IMG/VR virus record: IMGVR_UViG_3300027793_000297
Location: 1 to 22,659 of that record
DNA length: 22,659 bases
Origin: a virus
Strand: one strand, 5' to 3'
The position numbers and the translations under genes are program-made. Each line of letters begins with the position of its first letter. The first letter of the stretch is position 1. The notes beneath the pieces were generated by a model. The model saw nothing but the letters and a program-made list of their open reading frames with translations, was not told the DNA's origin and ran no database searches. Positions 9,061 to 13,694 of this stretch are shown here, piece after piece.

Positions 9061-9383
9061 ACCAACCTCCTACTTGTGGAAGACAAAAAGGTTCCACCCC
9101 ACCGACACGAACCCCAACAGGTTCTTCCAAAAAAAAGTTTGCGGATAGGTGGGGTGGTCACACAAACCTCTGCTATCCTGACCGCACACGTCACGCTGGG
9201 AAGCGTTGCGAACCCAAAAAATACGGTTCTCCTAAACGATTAGATTCCTCCTCGCGACAACAACCGCCAGGGCAGCATCGCCAGATCGCACGGACTAGTG
9301 GCCTGAAAAGGGGACCGTAGGTGTTCGTCTTCTTTCGGTATCCAGACAGACGGGTTCAGACGCTAAACAGAACTTGGGGGGCT

Positions 9384-9408
9384 AAAAACGTCCGCCCAAC
9401 AGCGGACG
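9384..9408 (-). terminator. Intrinsic terminator, minus strand
   Basis: A perfect 7-bp stem (CGTCCGC 9389-9395 with GCGGACG 9402-9408) and a 6-base loop is followed, on the minus strand, by five T residues (9388-9384). It would stop transcripts coming from the MoxR-VWA operon before they enter terminase. There is no T-run on the plus side. Confidence 0.65.
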
Positions 9409-9985: not shown

Positions 9986-10873
9986 TCAGTGGCTCGACGT
10001 GTGGCGTTCGATGAGTGCTCGCTCGAGTAGTGCGCCCATGTGTCCGGCGATGTCCTCGACGTGCTCGAGGTCGACGTCTTCGGCGTGTTCTGCCCATGCT
10101 CCGTTGACGTGGTAGTGCTCGACGGTTCCGTCGTCGGTTCGGGCGTACATGGTGACGCCGAACGGGTGCGCGATCGCGGTGGCTCGGGCGAGTGTTCCGT
10201 CTTCGAGTGCGGCGCGGTGCGTGACGATGATGATCGACGCGTCGTGTGCGGCGCATCGTCGGGCGAGGTCGTCGTCTGCGAAGGCGTCGCCGGGTCGGGT
10301 GTACTGGCCGACTTCTGCGATCGCGACGGGGAGCACGTGACGTGTCTCGATGTCGTGGGCGACTTGGTCGGGTGAGCCGATTTCGACGGCGTAGACGTGT
10401 GCGACGTCGTCGTCGTCGACGTGGCTCGCGATCTGCGACTCGATCACGGGGAGCGTTTCGCGGAGCACCTTTCCGTAGGCGTCGACCTGTTGCTCGCGCA
10501 GTTCGTCGAAGTGGTCGGCGGCCTGCTCGAGCGCGTCACCGACGAAGTCGACGCCCGAGCGCTTCGCTTCGACGCGGCGGCGGAGCCGGGCGACGTGTGT
10601 GGCGCTCGACCGGAGCGCGGCGGCGAGGCTCGGGAACGCTTCGAGACGTTCGTCGATGACTGCGTCGACGAGTTCGGCATACCGGGTCGACATTCTCGAC
10701 GCGAGCGTCGTCAGGTCGTCGAGCGCTTGCTCGACTCCCTGCTCGAGCGCTTCGGGCTTGACGTGCTCGACGGGGTTGTCGAGTGCGGCCAGTACTCGCT
10801 CGAGCGTGGCCTCGGTGCGTAGGAACGCGTCGCGCACTTGCGCGAGCACGTCGTGCGGCTGGTTGGTGGTCAT
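9986..10873 (-). CDS. Unknown 295-aa acidic, helix-rich protein; last gene of MoxR-VWA operon
   Basis: No family recognised. Residues 1-150 are almost wholly helical with heptad-like spacing (for example HFDELREQQVDAYGKVLRE near 121-139), suggesting a coiled coil or helical bundle. Residues 157-255 look like a small alpha/beta domain: VAHVYAVEIG, then ASIIIVTHR (212-220) and GVTMYARTDDGTVEHYHV (239-256). The C-terminus is acidic and rich in His. There is no signal peptide or membrane segment. The ATG at 10873 overlaps the stop of the preceding microprotein gene (ATGA) and has AAGGAGAA upstream. As the distal operon gene it takes the position where third-component proteins of MoxR-VWA systems are found, but no known effector motif is visible. 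Confidence 0.85.
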   Translation of the reverse strand: MTTNQPHDVLAQVRDAFLRTEATLERVLAALDNPVEHVKPEALEQGVEQALDDLTTLASRMSTRYAELVDAVIDERLEAFPSLAAALRSSATHVARLRRRVEAKRSGVDFVGDALEQAADHFDELREQQVDAYGKVLRETLPVIESQIASHVDDDDVAHVYAVEIGSPDQVAHDIETRHVLPVAIAEVGQYTRPGDAFADDDLARRCAAHDASIIIVTHRAALEDGTLARATAIAHPFGVTMYARTDDGTVEHYHVNGAWAEHAEDVDLEHVEDIAGHMGALLERALIERHTSSH

Positions 10874-11037
10874 GGTTGGGTTCTCCTTGTGTTGTTGTTG
10901 TGTTGGTGGGTGCGGCGCCTCGCGGCGCGGCGATCTTGTTCGGCTCGTTCGATCTGGCGTCCGGCGATGCGTCCGAAGACGTACCCGGTCGCGAGTCCGG
11001 TGAGCATCATGAGGGCGAGTGCGGCGTCGATCGACAT
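10870..11037 (-). CDS. 55-aa single-pass membrane microprotein in MoxR-VWA operon
   Basis: MSIDAALALMMLTGLATGYV begins one hydrophobic helix (about residues 5-25, with GxxxG-like small residues), followed by a strongly basic, polar tail of about 30 residues (RQIERAEQDRRAARRRTH). By the positive-inside rule the tail should be cytoplasmic. Its start overlaps the stop of the 24-aa gene by one base (TGATG), and its stop overlaps the start of the 295-aa gene (ATGA), so translation is coupled on both sides. GC-rich codon use matches the island. No family recognised. It may anchor one of the soluble partners to the membrane or perturb the membrane itself. Gene reality rests on the two coupled junctions plus a clean membrane helix. 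Confidence 0.75.
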   Translation of the reverse strand: MSIDAALALMMLTGLATGYVFGRIAGRQIERAEQDRRAARRRTHQHNNNTRRTQP

Positions 11038-11111
11038 CACTGGCCTCTCAAGTACTGGGCGGCGACGATGATCGACACGATGAGGAAGAGTGCGACGTCG
11101 TTTGTCGGCAT
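11037..11111 (-). CDS. 24-aa membrane microprotein in MoxR-VWA operon
   Basis: The whole product is MPTNDVALFLIVSIIVAAQY plus LRGQ: a short polar N-terminus, one hydrophobic helix of about 16 residues and a small basic end. It starts two bases after the VWA stop (TGA-CG-ATG), and its TGA overlaps the next ATG by one base. The ribosome site is weak (CAGGAC), so it is probably translated by coupling from the VWA gene. No family recognised. The size and layout recall small toxic or regulatory membrane peptides, but this is only an analogy. A chance open frame of this length is possible; the tight junctions and hydrophobicity argue for a real gene. Confidence 0.6.
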   Translation of the reverse strand: MPTNDVALFLIVSIIVAAQYLRGQ

Positions 11112-11113
11112 CG

Positions 11114-12451
11114 TCAGGCGTCCTGTCGTGAGTGGTGCTCGAGATAGCGGCCGATCGACGGCGTCGGCATTTTGCCGCGCGCCATAGCGCGAAGCGTGTC
11201 GATCGCTTCGGTTGCGTTGTGAACCTGCGTCACTCGATGTCGACGGAGCCGGGCGACCATGTCGCGCGCCAGTGACGTCGTCGAGCGTGTGCGCCCGGTG
11301 ACGTGTCCGTCGCTCACCCATAGGACGGGCATCCCGGCGCGGCGGCGGTAGCGCTTCACGGCGTACTCGAGCGCCGTCCCGTCGCATCCGTTGCCGCCGG
11401 GCACGTCGGGCATCTCGCGCACCCGGCGGCCGTCCTTTGCGATGAGCCACGTGTTTGCTCGACCGCTGTCGCCGTTGTCGCTCGCGGAGTAGCCGACGAC
11501 GACCGCGCCGCGCGCCGCGTCGATCACGTCGTCGATCTCTTCGGTCGACCAGTGCATCGAGCCGGAGAGATCGAGCACGAGCAACGCGTCGACGGCTCGT
11601 TGACGTGTCGTGAAGACTCGACGGTCGGGGTCGGTGAGGAGTCGCGACATTTGTCCGATCTTCGACCCGGTCGTCGACGGTCGTCGACGTGCGCCGACTT
11701 TGCCGCGGTGTGCGACGTCGAGCCGGGTTGCGCCCGGTATCGCGCGCACCCATAGGTCGCGGCCTTGCTCGATGTCGGGTGAGTCGCCGCCGGGCGGCCC
11801 GTCGACGGGTGTCGGTGTCGGTTTCCCGGCGAGCGTCGGCACGTCGTCGAGCACCTGCACGATGCGCGACGCGATGTGCGCGAGCACGTCGGCGTCGTAC
11901 TCGGCGTCGATCGGTCGACGATCTAACACCCCTTTCACGCCGTCGCGGAGCGTTTGCAACGCGTCGCGAAGTCTCGGGTGTTGCGCACCTAGTGCACGGA
12001 GCACGGAGCGCGCGCCGGGCGTGTGCAGGTGCTCGAGCGCGGCGACCGTCGCGTCGTGCGGCGTCATCTGCTCGAGTCGCCCGGCGACCAATTTCGCGTA
12101 GTCGACGTCCCACTCATGCTCGCCCTCGAGCGCGGCCTCGGTGAGCGCTTGCGCGCGCCACAGCCCGGCCACGTCGAGCGCGGTCTCTCGATGACGTCCG
12201 GCTCGTCGCATCTGTCGCGCGGCGTACGTGCGCCACTGACCGACGACGTCGTACCGGGCGCGAACGAGCGCCATTGTGCGCAGTGTGCGACCTAGTGGCG
12301 AGTCGAGTCGCGACGCTTCGAGTCGCCCGGCTTCGACGTCGACGCGAGTCGCCGCCGCGATCGGTGGCGCGTCCTTCGAGCGCCACGCGGCCGGGGTTGC
12401 GCCGTCGAGTCGACGGTCGAGCCACTCGGGACGAACGGGTGCAACGGTCAC
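11114..12451 (-). CDS. VWA-domain protein, partner of the MoxR ATPase
   Basis: 445 residues from the GTG at 12451, which overlaps the ATPase stop (GTGA). The frame stays open far upstream because the region is GC-rich, but only this start is coupled. Residues 1-200 are helical, residues 208-228 are a Pro/Gly-rich linker and residues 285-425 are a von Willebrand factor A domain. The metal-binding MIDAS is complete: D294-L-S296-G-S298, T359 (CDGTALEYA) and D381 (VLWVSDGHVTG). Organisation (helical N-part, C-terminal VWA) resembles ViaA, CobT and other VWA partners of MoxR ATPases, which bind metal and present substrates to the ATPase ring. The substrate here is unknown. Composition matches the island and not the flanking phage genes. 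Confidence 0.9.
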   Translation of the reverse strand: MTVAPVRPEWLDRRLDGATPAAWRSKDAPPIAAATRVDVEAGRLEASRLDSPLGRTLRTMALVRARYDVVGQWRTYAARQMRRAGRHRETALDVAGLWRAQALTEAALEGEHEWDVDYAKLVAGRLEQMTPHDATVAALEHLHTPGARSVLRALGAQHPRLRDALQTLRDGVKGVLDRRPIDAEYDADVLAHIASRIVQVLDDVPTLAGKPTPTPVDGPPGGDSPDIEQGRDLWVRAIPGATRLDVAHRGKVGARRRPSTTGSKIGQMSRLLTDPDRRVFTTRQRAVDALLVLDLSGSMHWSTEEIDDVIDAARGAVVVGYSASDNGDSGRANTWLIAKDGRRVREMPDVPGGNGCDGTALEYAVKRYRRRAGMPVLWVSDGHVTGRTRSTTSLARDMVARLRRHRVTQVHNATEAIDTLRAMARGKMPTPSIGRYLEHHSRQDA

Positions 12452-13179
12452 GGGCGCACCTGCAACGCGTTGACGCGCGCCGCTTCGACGATGCTCTCGC
12501 GGTGTTGCGGTAGCGCGATTTCGAGCGCCCGGTCGAGCGAGTGAACGCGCATCAACTCGACGACCGCGAGGAACGTGCGCAAACTGACGCGCTCGTGCTC
12601 GTCGGCCTTCGACAGTGCTCGAGCAGGCTCGCGGAGAAACTCGGGGAGACGTGCGAGCGCCGCCGGGTGCGGTTCGTCGATGTTGATCGCGATCGGGAAA
12701 CGGTCGCGGAGCGCTTCCGGGAGTAGGTGCGGCTCGACGTTCGTTGTCGCGATCGCCTGAAACTCGGCGCCCGGCTTCACGATGTCGCGCGTCTCGGGGT
12801 TCTGCCATTCGCACGACTCGAACGAGTCGGTCGCAAGGAGCAGACTCGACAGCGCTTCGCCGCCGGCCTTGTCGATTTCGTCGAACACGAGTCGAGACTC
12901 GCCGCGACGCCATGCGCGAGGAACAGCGCCCTCGTGGAATGACCAGCGCGTGCCGTCTTCCGGCTTCCACTGTCCGAAGATTTGCGCGTCGGTCATGTCC
13001 TCGACACACTGAACGCGGAGCGCGCCGTTTTTCGGTGCGTACAGCGAGCGCGCGCCGTACGTCTTGCCAGTGCCGGGCGGCCCCCACAACAGCACTCGTG
13101 AGAGGCCAGCGCGGAGCACGTCGTCGAGCGCTTGCCAGCAGGGTGGCAACGCGTCGAGCGTCGGGTCGATGGTGGTCAT
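12448..13179 (-). CDS. MoxR-type AAA+ ATPase
   Basis: 243 residues, short for a MoxR protein (usually about 300 or more), so the C-terminal lid is reduced. Walker A is GPPGTGKT (33-40), Walker B LVFDE (97-101), sensor 1 the Asn of AIATTNVEP (147), and arginine-finger candidates lie in LRDRFPI (R158, R160). FHEGAVPRAW and LLLATDSF match the segments around the AAA+ pore and the second helix of this clade. CobS-like ATPases are close alternatives. Family members form hexameric rings that remodel or metallate partners together with a VWA protein, here encoded next with a GTGA overlap. The start is supported by GAAAGGAAA at a normal distance. It opens the five-gene island operon after a 383-base leader. 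Confidence 0.93.
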   Translation of the reverse strand: MTTIDPTLDALPPCWQALDDVLRAGLSRVLLWGPPGTGKTYGARSLYAPKNGALRVQCVEDMTDAQIFGQWKPEDGTRWSFHEGAVPRAWRRGESRLVFDEIDKAGGEALSSLLLATDSFESCEWQNPETRDIVKPGAEFQAIATTNVEPHLLPEALRDRFPIAINIDEPHPAALARLPEFLREPARALSKADEHERVSLRTFLAVVELMRVHSLDRALEIALPQHRESIVEAARVNALQVRP

Positions 13180-13397: not shown

Positions 13398-13428
13398 CGG
13401 CCCCGGCGTCGATCGACGGGCGCGTCGA
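13398..13428. repeat. 31-bp direct repeat, copy 2
   Basis: Second copy of the repeat at 13320-13350, with the same CGTCGATCGACG palindrome. The sequence between the copies is also rich in GTCGAC-type words, so simple expansion of a low-complexity region is an alternative to selected binding sites. Confidence 0.85.
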
Positions 13429-13474
13429 ACGTATGTTCGAGCAGCACCCTCGAACGCGCAGAGTGGTTTTTCTA

Positions 13475-13490
13475 CTTACCGTTCAGTAAG
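13475..13490. promoter_or_regulatory. Operator-like palindrome upstream of MoxR-VWA operon
   Basis: CTTAC (13475-13479) and GTAAG (13486-13490) flank CGTTCA. Further GTTC/GAAC inverse pairs overlap it on the right (13481-13484, 13492-13495, 13500-13503). Nested dyads of this kind are common at TetR-like or phage repressor operators. The bound protein, if any, is unknown. Confidence 0.4.
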
Positions 13491-13562
13491 CGAACAGACG
13501 TTCGGTGAAGAAACTTTTTTTCCTAAGACGCGGCGGCGGCCGCCGACCCACCTAGATCTGGT

Positions 13563-13694
13563 TTACACATCGGTAGCGGTTGGTGTCCACATCGGTAGCG
13601 GCAGTTTGTTTTTGATGTTGTTGTTGGGTCGTGGTGTGCGGTCGACGGGTTGGACTGGCATCTTGTTCATCTTGGGCATGTGTTTGCGGTTCAT
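13563..13694 (-). CDS. 43-aa basic Pro/Met/Asn-rich peptide
   Basis: MNRKHMPKMNKMPVQPVDRT begins a 43-residue basic product ending LPLPMWTPTATDV. The ATG overlaps the stop of the zinc-ribbon gene upstream (ATGA), which is the main support. There are no Cys residues and no membrane helix. A longer reading of the same frame from 13796 would run inside the upstream gene and is not preferred. The end of the gene and the bases just after it carry a 14-base direct repeat (13566-13579 and 13588-13601). No family recognised. It is the last gene before the GC-rich island. Confidence 0.5.
   Translation of the reverse strand: MNRKHMPKMNKMPVQPVDRTPRPNNNIKNKLPLPMWTPTATDV

Follow-up and report, generated by a model that had tools for sequence, protein, structure and literature searches.

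The window analysed here comprises 22,659 bases of an IMG/VR virus record (IMGVR_UViG_3300027793_000297), the main genes of which lie on the minus strand. Among them is a chain of five genes at 9986-13179, on the same strand, which forms a MoxR-VWA module with small hydrophobic partners. In order, these specify a MoxR-type AAA+ ATPase of 243 amino acids (aa) with an ATG start (12448-13179), a VWA protein of 445 aa with a GTG start (11114-12451), a hydrophobic microprotein of 24 aa beginning MPTND (microprotein 1; 11037-11111), a microprotein of 55 aa with a hydrophobic N-terminus and a basic tail (microprotein 2; 10870-11037), and a third partner of 295 aa (9986-10873). The chaining put forward in the original prediction was re-read from the sequence and re-found: the MoxR and VWA genes overlap by 4 bases, a gap of 2 bases precedes microprotein 1, and overlaps of 1 and 4 bases join microprotein 1 to microprotein 2 and the latter to the third gene. 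Third-position G+C is 73-84% across the five frames and exceeds the second-position value in every frame; the G+C content of the operon is 67.5% against 56.6% for the remaining window.

The operon is located upstream of the terminase and structural genes, on the same strand. The window also encodes a WhiB protein (E-value=1.1e-19) and a YqaJ-type recombinase and, elsewhere, a VanY peptidase (1.9e-14) and a lysozyme-like protein (5.6e-8); because of this gene content the host is likely an actinobacterium. A search for Pfam integrases in the records of 27 relatives, 21 of them with the module or part of it and the window's own record excluded, found none, and neither a resolvase nor an S24-type repressor turned up in 12 records, the window's among them; these records may be fragments. 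Since none of the three was found, the uncultured phages of this group are probably lytic.

Conservation and replacement among related phages

That the module exists and is conserved is very likely. The window MoxR alone found one near relative, L002 (loci are designated by L and a number), and an alignment of these two sequences led to 20 loci (60 stretches matched a pattern), in all of which a VWA gene adjoins MoxR. A second set was assembled with the terminase: the best 80 of 120 relatives were kept and, with the window added, 43 had enough upstream DNA to be scored while 38 were dropped. The module lies approximately 2-4 kb upstream of the terminase gene in 25 of the 43, with both genes in 22 and VWA only, at contig edges, in L118, L148 and L151. 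It is absent at this place in 18, of which 17 whole records (possibly fragments) are without any VWA match; the record of L147 has a VWA match elsewhere, though none within reach upstream of the terminase. On the terminase tree the module is present in 23/23 scorable rows of one supported clade, plus L148 and L151, and its distribution requires 2 changes as opposed to 13.9 with shuffled labels. For these reasons the module counts as a core trait of the clade rather than as rare cargo, and the cargo system envisaged in the original prediction finds no support in that form.

Six members (window, L103, L104, L105, L108 and L154), here called subclade A, share one gene order without exception: MoxR, VWA, microprotein 1 (24-27 aa), microprotein 2 (52-69 aa) and third gene (295-322 aa), L108 having an additional small open reading frame (ORF) ahead of the third gene. 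The five-gene order sought in the neighbourhood check thus recurs with both microproteins, and the earlier description of a MoxR-VWA operon with membrane microproteins and a variable third partner of unknown kind is supported. The sister subclade is represented by 14 distinct VWA rows; in these phages the third gene, of 178-245 aa, directly follows VWA, L111 having a 26-aa ORF before it. Here a hydrophobic microprotein of 20-52 aa comes after the third gene in L107, L111, L115, L117, L120, L132, L134 and L138, and one of 31 aa in L113; with L114 left aside, none was found in that place in L116, L127 or L128. In L127 and L129 the MoxR and VWA genes are separated by one for a hydrophobic protein of 63 aa. 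VWA is followed in L148 and L151 by a gene for a coiled coil of 116 aa that ends in a hydrophobic C-terminus, after which L151 has a further gene, of 207 aa. This fusion is an indirect hint that coiled coil and membrane part belong together.

A tblastn search of named phages (50,697 records) with MoxR, VWA and the 295-aa protein gave nothing at the first limits. At an E-value of 10 MoxR retrieved generic ATPases in 80 records, cyanophage CobS among them, and VWA three chance-level matches, and none was found with the VWAs of three relatives. At that sensitivity, and with near records possibly left out, the MoxR-VWA family is absent from this collection; PHROGs holds the VWA family.

Between the window and L002 protein identity falls from 89% (portal) and 86% (terminase) to 76% (MoxR), 49% (VWA) and 38% (third protein). 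In 30 close pairs, drawn from 22 loci with terminases more than 84% identical, the third gene always ranks last of the four genes in protein identity, alone or tied; the pairs are not independent and two of them are identical or nearly so. The ratios of nonsynonymous to synonymous substitution (dN/dS), where defined and non-zero, were 0.01-0.11 for the terminase and 0.17-0.97 for the third gene; in a few pairs that of VWA exceeds the third gene's. L104 and L108 have terminase proteins that are 99% identical, and the entire cassette differs, at 50-76% identity per 250-base window (21% in one gapped window), with flanks mostly at 84-98%. Compared by contig block, the cassette stands at 67-69%, a short block just upstream at 78% and the others, bar one region, at 82-96%. 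L127 and L129 are 85-99% identical through VWA, 57-73% in the third gene and low for approximately 0.6 kb more, and from about 0.7 kb onward identity is back at 93-99%. Replacement or exchange between closely related phages has thus affected either the third gene together with its surroundings or the complete cassette; such events fit an interaction under changing pressure, which would be the selective reason.

The five proteins

The ATPase (Walker A at 13060-13083) matched Pfam AAA_5 (E-value=4.8e-16; 59.5 bits, cut-off 22) and, in PHROGs, phrog_16448 (1.5e-34) and phrog_249 'porphyrin biosynthesis' (1e-16). Its profile was closest in the PDB to Midasin (3.2e-44), a chain with several AAA modules that was matched in 3 stretches, followed by NorQ (1.9e-8) and CbbQ (3.7e-7). 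Walker A and Walker B, described as intact in the original prediction, are invariant in 36/36 distinct MoxR sequences, as are the residues which, by position, we take to be the sensor-1 Asn, the Arg finger and the sensor-2 Arg. With the NCBIfam chelatase family TIGR02442 the E-value was 0.11 (10.9 bits against a cut-off of 779), and PADLOC returned P-loop-type matches only, the best being IetA (3.5e-6).

The VWA protein consists of an N-domain and a C-terminal VWA domain (residues 286-428). It belongs with phrog_33218 (5.8e-51), which was matched by 29/29 aligned relatives as well; Pfam VWA_CoxE reached 22.1 bits, under its cut-off of 26.4, and no NCBIfam family matched. In the AF2 model (mean pLDDT 83.7, pTM 0.49) the N-domain is mostly helical. 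Foldseek with the whole model found nothing below 0.001 in the PDB, and the VWA fold was recognised in a second structural comparison, at residues 287-428 (Z 8.6, rmsd 3.0 A, 127 residues aligned). No domain was detected beyond residue 428 of the 445, and hence no C-terminal fused effector.

A complete MIDAS consists of DxSxS, a Thr and an Asp, and such a motif had been ascribed to this protein. The DxSxS (residues 294-298; 11558-11572) and the second Asp are invariant in 38/38 distinct phage VWAs and in 27/27 chromosomal ones, the latter being the full-length proteins among 31 Actinomycetota loci described below. The loop at residues 354-357 (NGCD; 11381-11392) is atypical and without Thr: the position expected for it, 355, located by its spacing to the following helix, is occupied in the phage proteins by Gly (34), Asp (2), Ala (1) or Ser (1), and by Gly in 27/27 chromosomal proteins. 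With Thr in 0/38 and 0/27, the claim of completeness fails. Asn354 and Asp357, which flank this position, are invariant in 38/38 phage VWAs.

In the N-domain the HExxH motif has been lost. At residues 60-64 (MALVR; 12260-12274) the alignment column contains HExxH in 45 of 65 VWAs, namely 27/27 chromosomal, 17/17 from a group of large phages (L004-L021) and 1/1 in L151, and in none of the 20 of the window's two subclades (0/6 in subclade A, 0/14 in the sister subclade). An HExxH match in the L105 protein lies elsewhere and is unrelated to this column. The vWA proteins of group 2.2 jumbo phages are described as fused to a metallopeptidase and adjacent to MoxR, with a proposed role in virion assembly (PMC7824862). 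Given that fusion and the loss of the motif of its relatives, the window N-domain looks like a dead metallopeptidase derivative, the loss of activity being suggested by the motif.

Microprotein 1 has a Kyte-Doolittle hydropathy of 2.15 over 17 residues, against a background in which 3.8% of 12,188 small ORFs reach 2.0, and its MPTND start and hydrophobic core are found in 6/6 members of subclade A. Microprotein 2, present in the same six, is less hydrophobic in the window (1.75; 2.46 in L103); aligned for three members, the others were 47% and 30% identical to the window's. It matched phrog_1026, an Rz-like spanin, weakly (4.2e-4), and had no match in PADLOC. Judged by hydrophobicity, the module likely acts at the membrane.

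The third partner is predicted to contain a helical part (residues 6-151) and an alpha/beta domain (158-293); its AF2 model, from a six-sequence alignment, has a mean pLDDT of 76.6 and a pTM of 0.59. No match below 0.001 was obtained in Pfam, PHROGs, NCBIfam or PADLOC. Against the PDB the model resembled generic helical bundles only, and the best viral matches were uncharacterised proteins of 152, 240 and 234 aa (probability 1.0, TM-score 0.28-0.34 by query). Homology to the third family of the sister subclade was found with hhalign (single-comparison E-value=1.6e-4, prob 50.9; 1.3e-5 and 80.6 under another column rule; reversed control 0.43). A look-alike in the large phages, with the motif YLLIMAVP, was rejected since its hhalign values of 0.1 and 0.2 were near the reversed controls (0.18 and 0.27).

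A domain of approximately 110 residues (TxGWAxP...HPDRRRVRL...SVLRF...DxGxAxGxLxDAL) was noted in small proteins of MoxR-VWA phages (L127:3246-3701, L134:3961-4434, L116:3090-3569, L132:2903-3436, L013:2444-2890, L009:3425-3934 and L012:3943-4395). These proteins, of 148-277 aa, have their genes ahead of MoxR, or in the space between it and VWA, in the sister phages, and are also encoded in some large phages; three were scanned, with no significant Pfam or PHROG match. The domain may tentatively be related to the 295-aa family (E-value=1e-4, prob 57; reversed 0.7), and a connection with the third family of the sister phages was not evident (0.025, prob 2; reversed 0.38). The 1e-18 at which the sister member L111 matched the iterated profile is inflated, L111 itself having been included in that profile. 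Proteins encoded upstream of MoxR in L113 (1213-1938), L107 (2875-3600), L117 (2016-2795) and L120 (2933-3655) resemble paralogues of the third gene, judged by eye and by comparison (a similar acidic N-terminal helix), as if two third-gene copies flanked MoxR-VWA.

LexA-type boxes and chromosomal relatives

Upstream of the operon are two copies of the LexA-type palindrome CGAACN4GTTCG, at 13491-13504 and 13426-13439. The LexA motif of S. venezuelae is tCGAAC-N4-GNNCGa (PMC9380542), with which the core of these putative operators agrees. The palindrome lies upstream of MoxR in 5/5 subclade A members with 500 bases upstream (L154 is too short), twice each in the window and L105, and over 20 loci such boxes occur at 0.76/kb upstream of MoxR against 0.066/kb elsewhere. 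Between the two boxes, on the minus strand, a near-palindrome TACTGAACGGTAAGTA (13473-13488) is a possible second operator; relatives of it, TTACTG-N2-CGGTAA, occur upstream in L103 and L104, and were not found upstream in L105, L108 or L154. Also upstream of the operon, GCTACCGATGT is present twice (13567-13577 and 13589-13599) and is paired in L103, L104 and L108 too.

A MoxR-VWA pair is found on the chromosome in 4 of 296 genomes drawn across the Actinomycetota (one on a phage-like contig) and in 74 of 150 genomes of one family of that phylum; a second draw with another centre gave the same tally. Thirty-one loci were examined (L189-L191 and L196-L223), and also L193 and L194. The chromosomal pair has the same MoxR and VWA families and the same atypical MIDAS as the window's, its MoxR being up to 49.5% identical over 206 residues. 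It differs in its intact HExxH and in the adjacent nrdR and SOS-boxed LysM-like genes, and profiles of the third partner or the related domain found no match in any of the 31 loci or in three stretches of 14 kb. A rapidly built MoxR tree, which carries long-branch warnings, puts subclade A, the sister phages and the large phages each on one side of a branch; the chromosomal rows require two changes.

In 30 of the 31 loci a pair of boxes 22-27 bases apart follows VWA within about 80 bases (about 430 in L223); L215 has one box only. Altogether the loci contain 69 sites where shuffling predicts 1.14. The gene after the boxes, extracted in 24 cases, encodes a protein of 135-147 aa in 21 and of 190 and 192 aa in two, that of L200 being seemingly out of frame. 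A hydrophobic stretch is present in 23 of the 24, and a LysM-like end was judged by eye; of two tested against Pfam LysM, one scored 7.8e-4, just under the cut-off, and the other nothing. nrdR occurs in 29/31 loci and lexA adjoins MoxR in 5 of 17 with at least 400 bases upstream; Pfam confirmed LexA in L194, and NrdR with a Y-family (dinB-type) polymerase in L193. YneA (PMC13396833) and ChiZ (PMC3989709) are SOS-induced LysM division inhibitors, a type which the putative SOS-boxed LysM-like gene resembles. SOS control of the chromosomal pair itself was considered and set aside: boxes precede MoxR only where lexA adjoins (L189, L190, L196, L207 and probably L197), and so may belong to lexA.

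A non-coding element of approximately 180 bases lies between operon and terminase (9211-9387, minus strand). It is nearly invariant in 11 matches (10 different sequences, L022 and L103 being the same contig), among them L139, where the cassette is absent at that place. It had no Rfam match at the gathering score, and RNAalifold gave no supporting covariation; a packaging site or a regulatory element is possible. Genes whose N-terminal sequence, and only that, resembles a cytosine-DNA methyltransferase are situated just upstream of the cassette in L003 (6473-7558) and farther upstream of the terminase in L135 (1948-3570) and L164 (1560-3203).

Possible roles of the module

In the reading that we favour, held tentatively and with somewhat less than even confidence, the operon would specify a phage AAA+ remodelling machine at the host membrane, with exchangeable adaptors, a target in the host envelope or division apparatus, and SOS-type control. 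MoxR would form an ATP-driven ring, and VWA would couple this ring to the third protein, the helical and alpha/beta parts of which would choose the target. The microproteins would hold the assembly at the membrane, and the machine would exert force on, or obstruct, an envelope or division protein of the host and leave it uncut. With LexA-type boxes in front of the operon and SOS genes next to its chromosomal relatives, the operon may be switched on when infection triggers DNA-damage signalling, and the ancestral MoxR-VWA pair may have served a host SOS/division checkpoint. A bolder version, which we consider improbable, takes the chromosomal MoxR and HExxH-VWA for a hitherto unrecognised AAA+ machine, protease or remodeller, that serves the SOS checkpoint of cell division and acts on the adjacent membrane-LysM protein; the phages' motif-lost copy, with its exchangeable membrane adaptors and LexA-type control, would then seize or jam the division/envelope checkpoint of the infected host.

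Several observations weigh against the favoured reading. In the sister subclade an upstream box was seen in 1 of 14 loci only (L111, an imperfect match), and the chromosomal box pairs, which lie after VWA and ahead of the LysM-like gene, may not govern MoxR-VWA. The ORF chains of L116 and L128 showed no microprotein after the third gene. Other proteins are also of low identity between the window and L002 (WhiB 48%, exonuclease 54%), all dN/dS values are below 1, and the genes differ in recombination history. L104 and L108 have a second variable region (approximately 7.7-11.4 kb in reversed G002 coordinates), largely unalignable and probably of tail fibre or surface genes, and the structural genes of L127 and L129 are mosaic too; a variable virion protein could, for these last two reasons, be the client.

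Virion assembly is accordingly the rival that deserves most attention, and we regard it as rather unlikely. MoxR-VWA would fold or process a structural protein, likeliest one of a variable tail or fibre, for which the third protein would be the client-specific adaptor; the location upstream of terminase and structural genes and the two variable regions just mentioned, as co-varying clients, agree with this. So do published proposals, the one for jumbo phages and that for p618/p892 of ATV, a viral MoxR ATPase and its VWA partner to which a chaperone role in tail development is assigned (PMC4124505, PMC7911831). However, in L104 and L108 the terminase, portal and most structural blocks remain at 82-96% where the cassette is at 67-69%, and 18 of 43 scorable terminase relatives do without the module at that place, 17 of these records being without any VWA match. 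Larger phages of other kinds have the pair as well, as do chromosomal stretches of 14 kb in which no phage genes were recognised by eye, and assembly leaves the hydrophobic microproteins and SOS-type boxes unexplained. It is unlikely, and less probable than assembly, that a membrane-anchored module serves superinfection exclusion or anti-defence, as suggested in the original prediction, by blocking competing phages or host defence. The hydrophobic microproteins, fast divergence and third-gene replacement between related phages would suit such a role, but PADLOC gave only the P-loop-type matches of the ATPase and none for VWA, the third protein or microprotein 2, and presence in 23/23 scorable members of one clade is unlike sporadic defence cargo. 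Exclusion of the prophage type is made less likely by the failure to find integrase, resolvase or S24 repressor in the records searched, fragments as these may be.

CobS-CobT, NorQ-NorD and CbbQ-CbbO are pairs for metal insertion or activation, and the NorQ, CbbQ and phrog_249 matches of MoxR could suggest enzyme maturation or metabolism. This is highly improbable: Midasin is a far better match, no known enzyme is present in the operon and no chelatase gene was recognised alongside. The original prediction would have been refuted by ordinary chelatase genes without conserved microproteins, an outcome not seen here; TIGR02442 gave only 0.11, and the microproteins are conserved in 6/6. Equally improbable is that the microproteins are common lysis proteins of small size, of the spanin or holin type, whose place between VWA and the third gene is incidental, as the spanin match of microprotein 2 might indicate. 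That match is weak, VanY and the lysozyme-like protein have their genes elsewhere in the window, all six members have the microproteins chained to the module, and hydrophobic microproteins reappear at changed positions in the sister subclade.

Titles and abstract beginnings retrieved on phage MoxR/VWA, RavA-ViaA and superinfection exclusion contain no description of this module. As in the group 2.2 jumbo phages, MoxR adjoins vWA, and the large-phage group L004-L021 also has an N-terminal HExxH; the window VWA differs in lacking it, like all 20 of its two subclades (against 45/45 of the others), and in the added third partner and microproteins. The relatives' records are of approximately 36-41 kb, in contrast to jumbo phages, the pairs of which are compared here by their description rather than by sequence. 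ATV resembles the present case in its virus-encoded MoxR with VWA, but is an archaeal virus for which no such cassette is described in the text available. VMAP and other ternary conflict systems likewise combine MoxR, vWA and a third protein and diversify between relatives (PMC7159879); here, unlike in those, no domain was found after VWA, the third protein matches no family in the libraries searched, the module is phage-borne and microproteins are chained to it. Membership of the VMAP systems named in the original prediction is not demonstrated by these features. The HExxH loss, the LexA-type boxes and the chromosomal relatives in an SOS gene cluster formed no part of that prediction.

RavA-ViaA, CbbQ-CbbO and NorQ-NorD share the chaperone logic of MoxR plus VWA; compared with these, the window MoxR is short and its partners are different. 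Judged by sequence, the cassette is a version of MoxR-VWA from which the protease motif has been lost and to which hydrophobic microproteins and a fast-changing, exchangeable partner have been added.

Viral MoxR-VWA pairs have so far been proposed as virion-assembly chaperones. Replacement of the partner gene, or of the cassette as a whole, in phages so closely related suggests that the opponent or client is itself variable, and raises the question of what a phage gains from a seemingly peptidase-dead copy with membrane partners. A further question is the role of the chromosomal pair after DNA damage. With its apparent protease motif, beside nrdR, sometimes lexA, and a putatively SOS-boxed LysM-like gene, that pair is a concrete lead.

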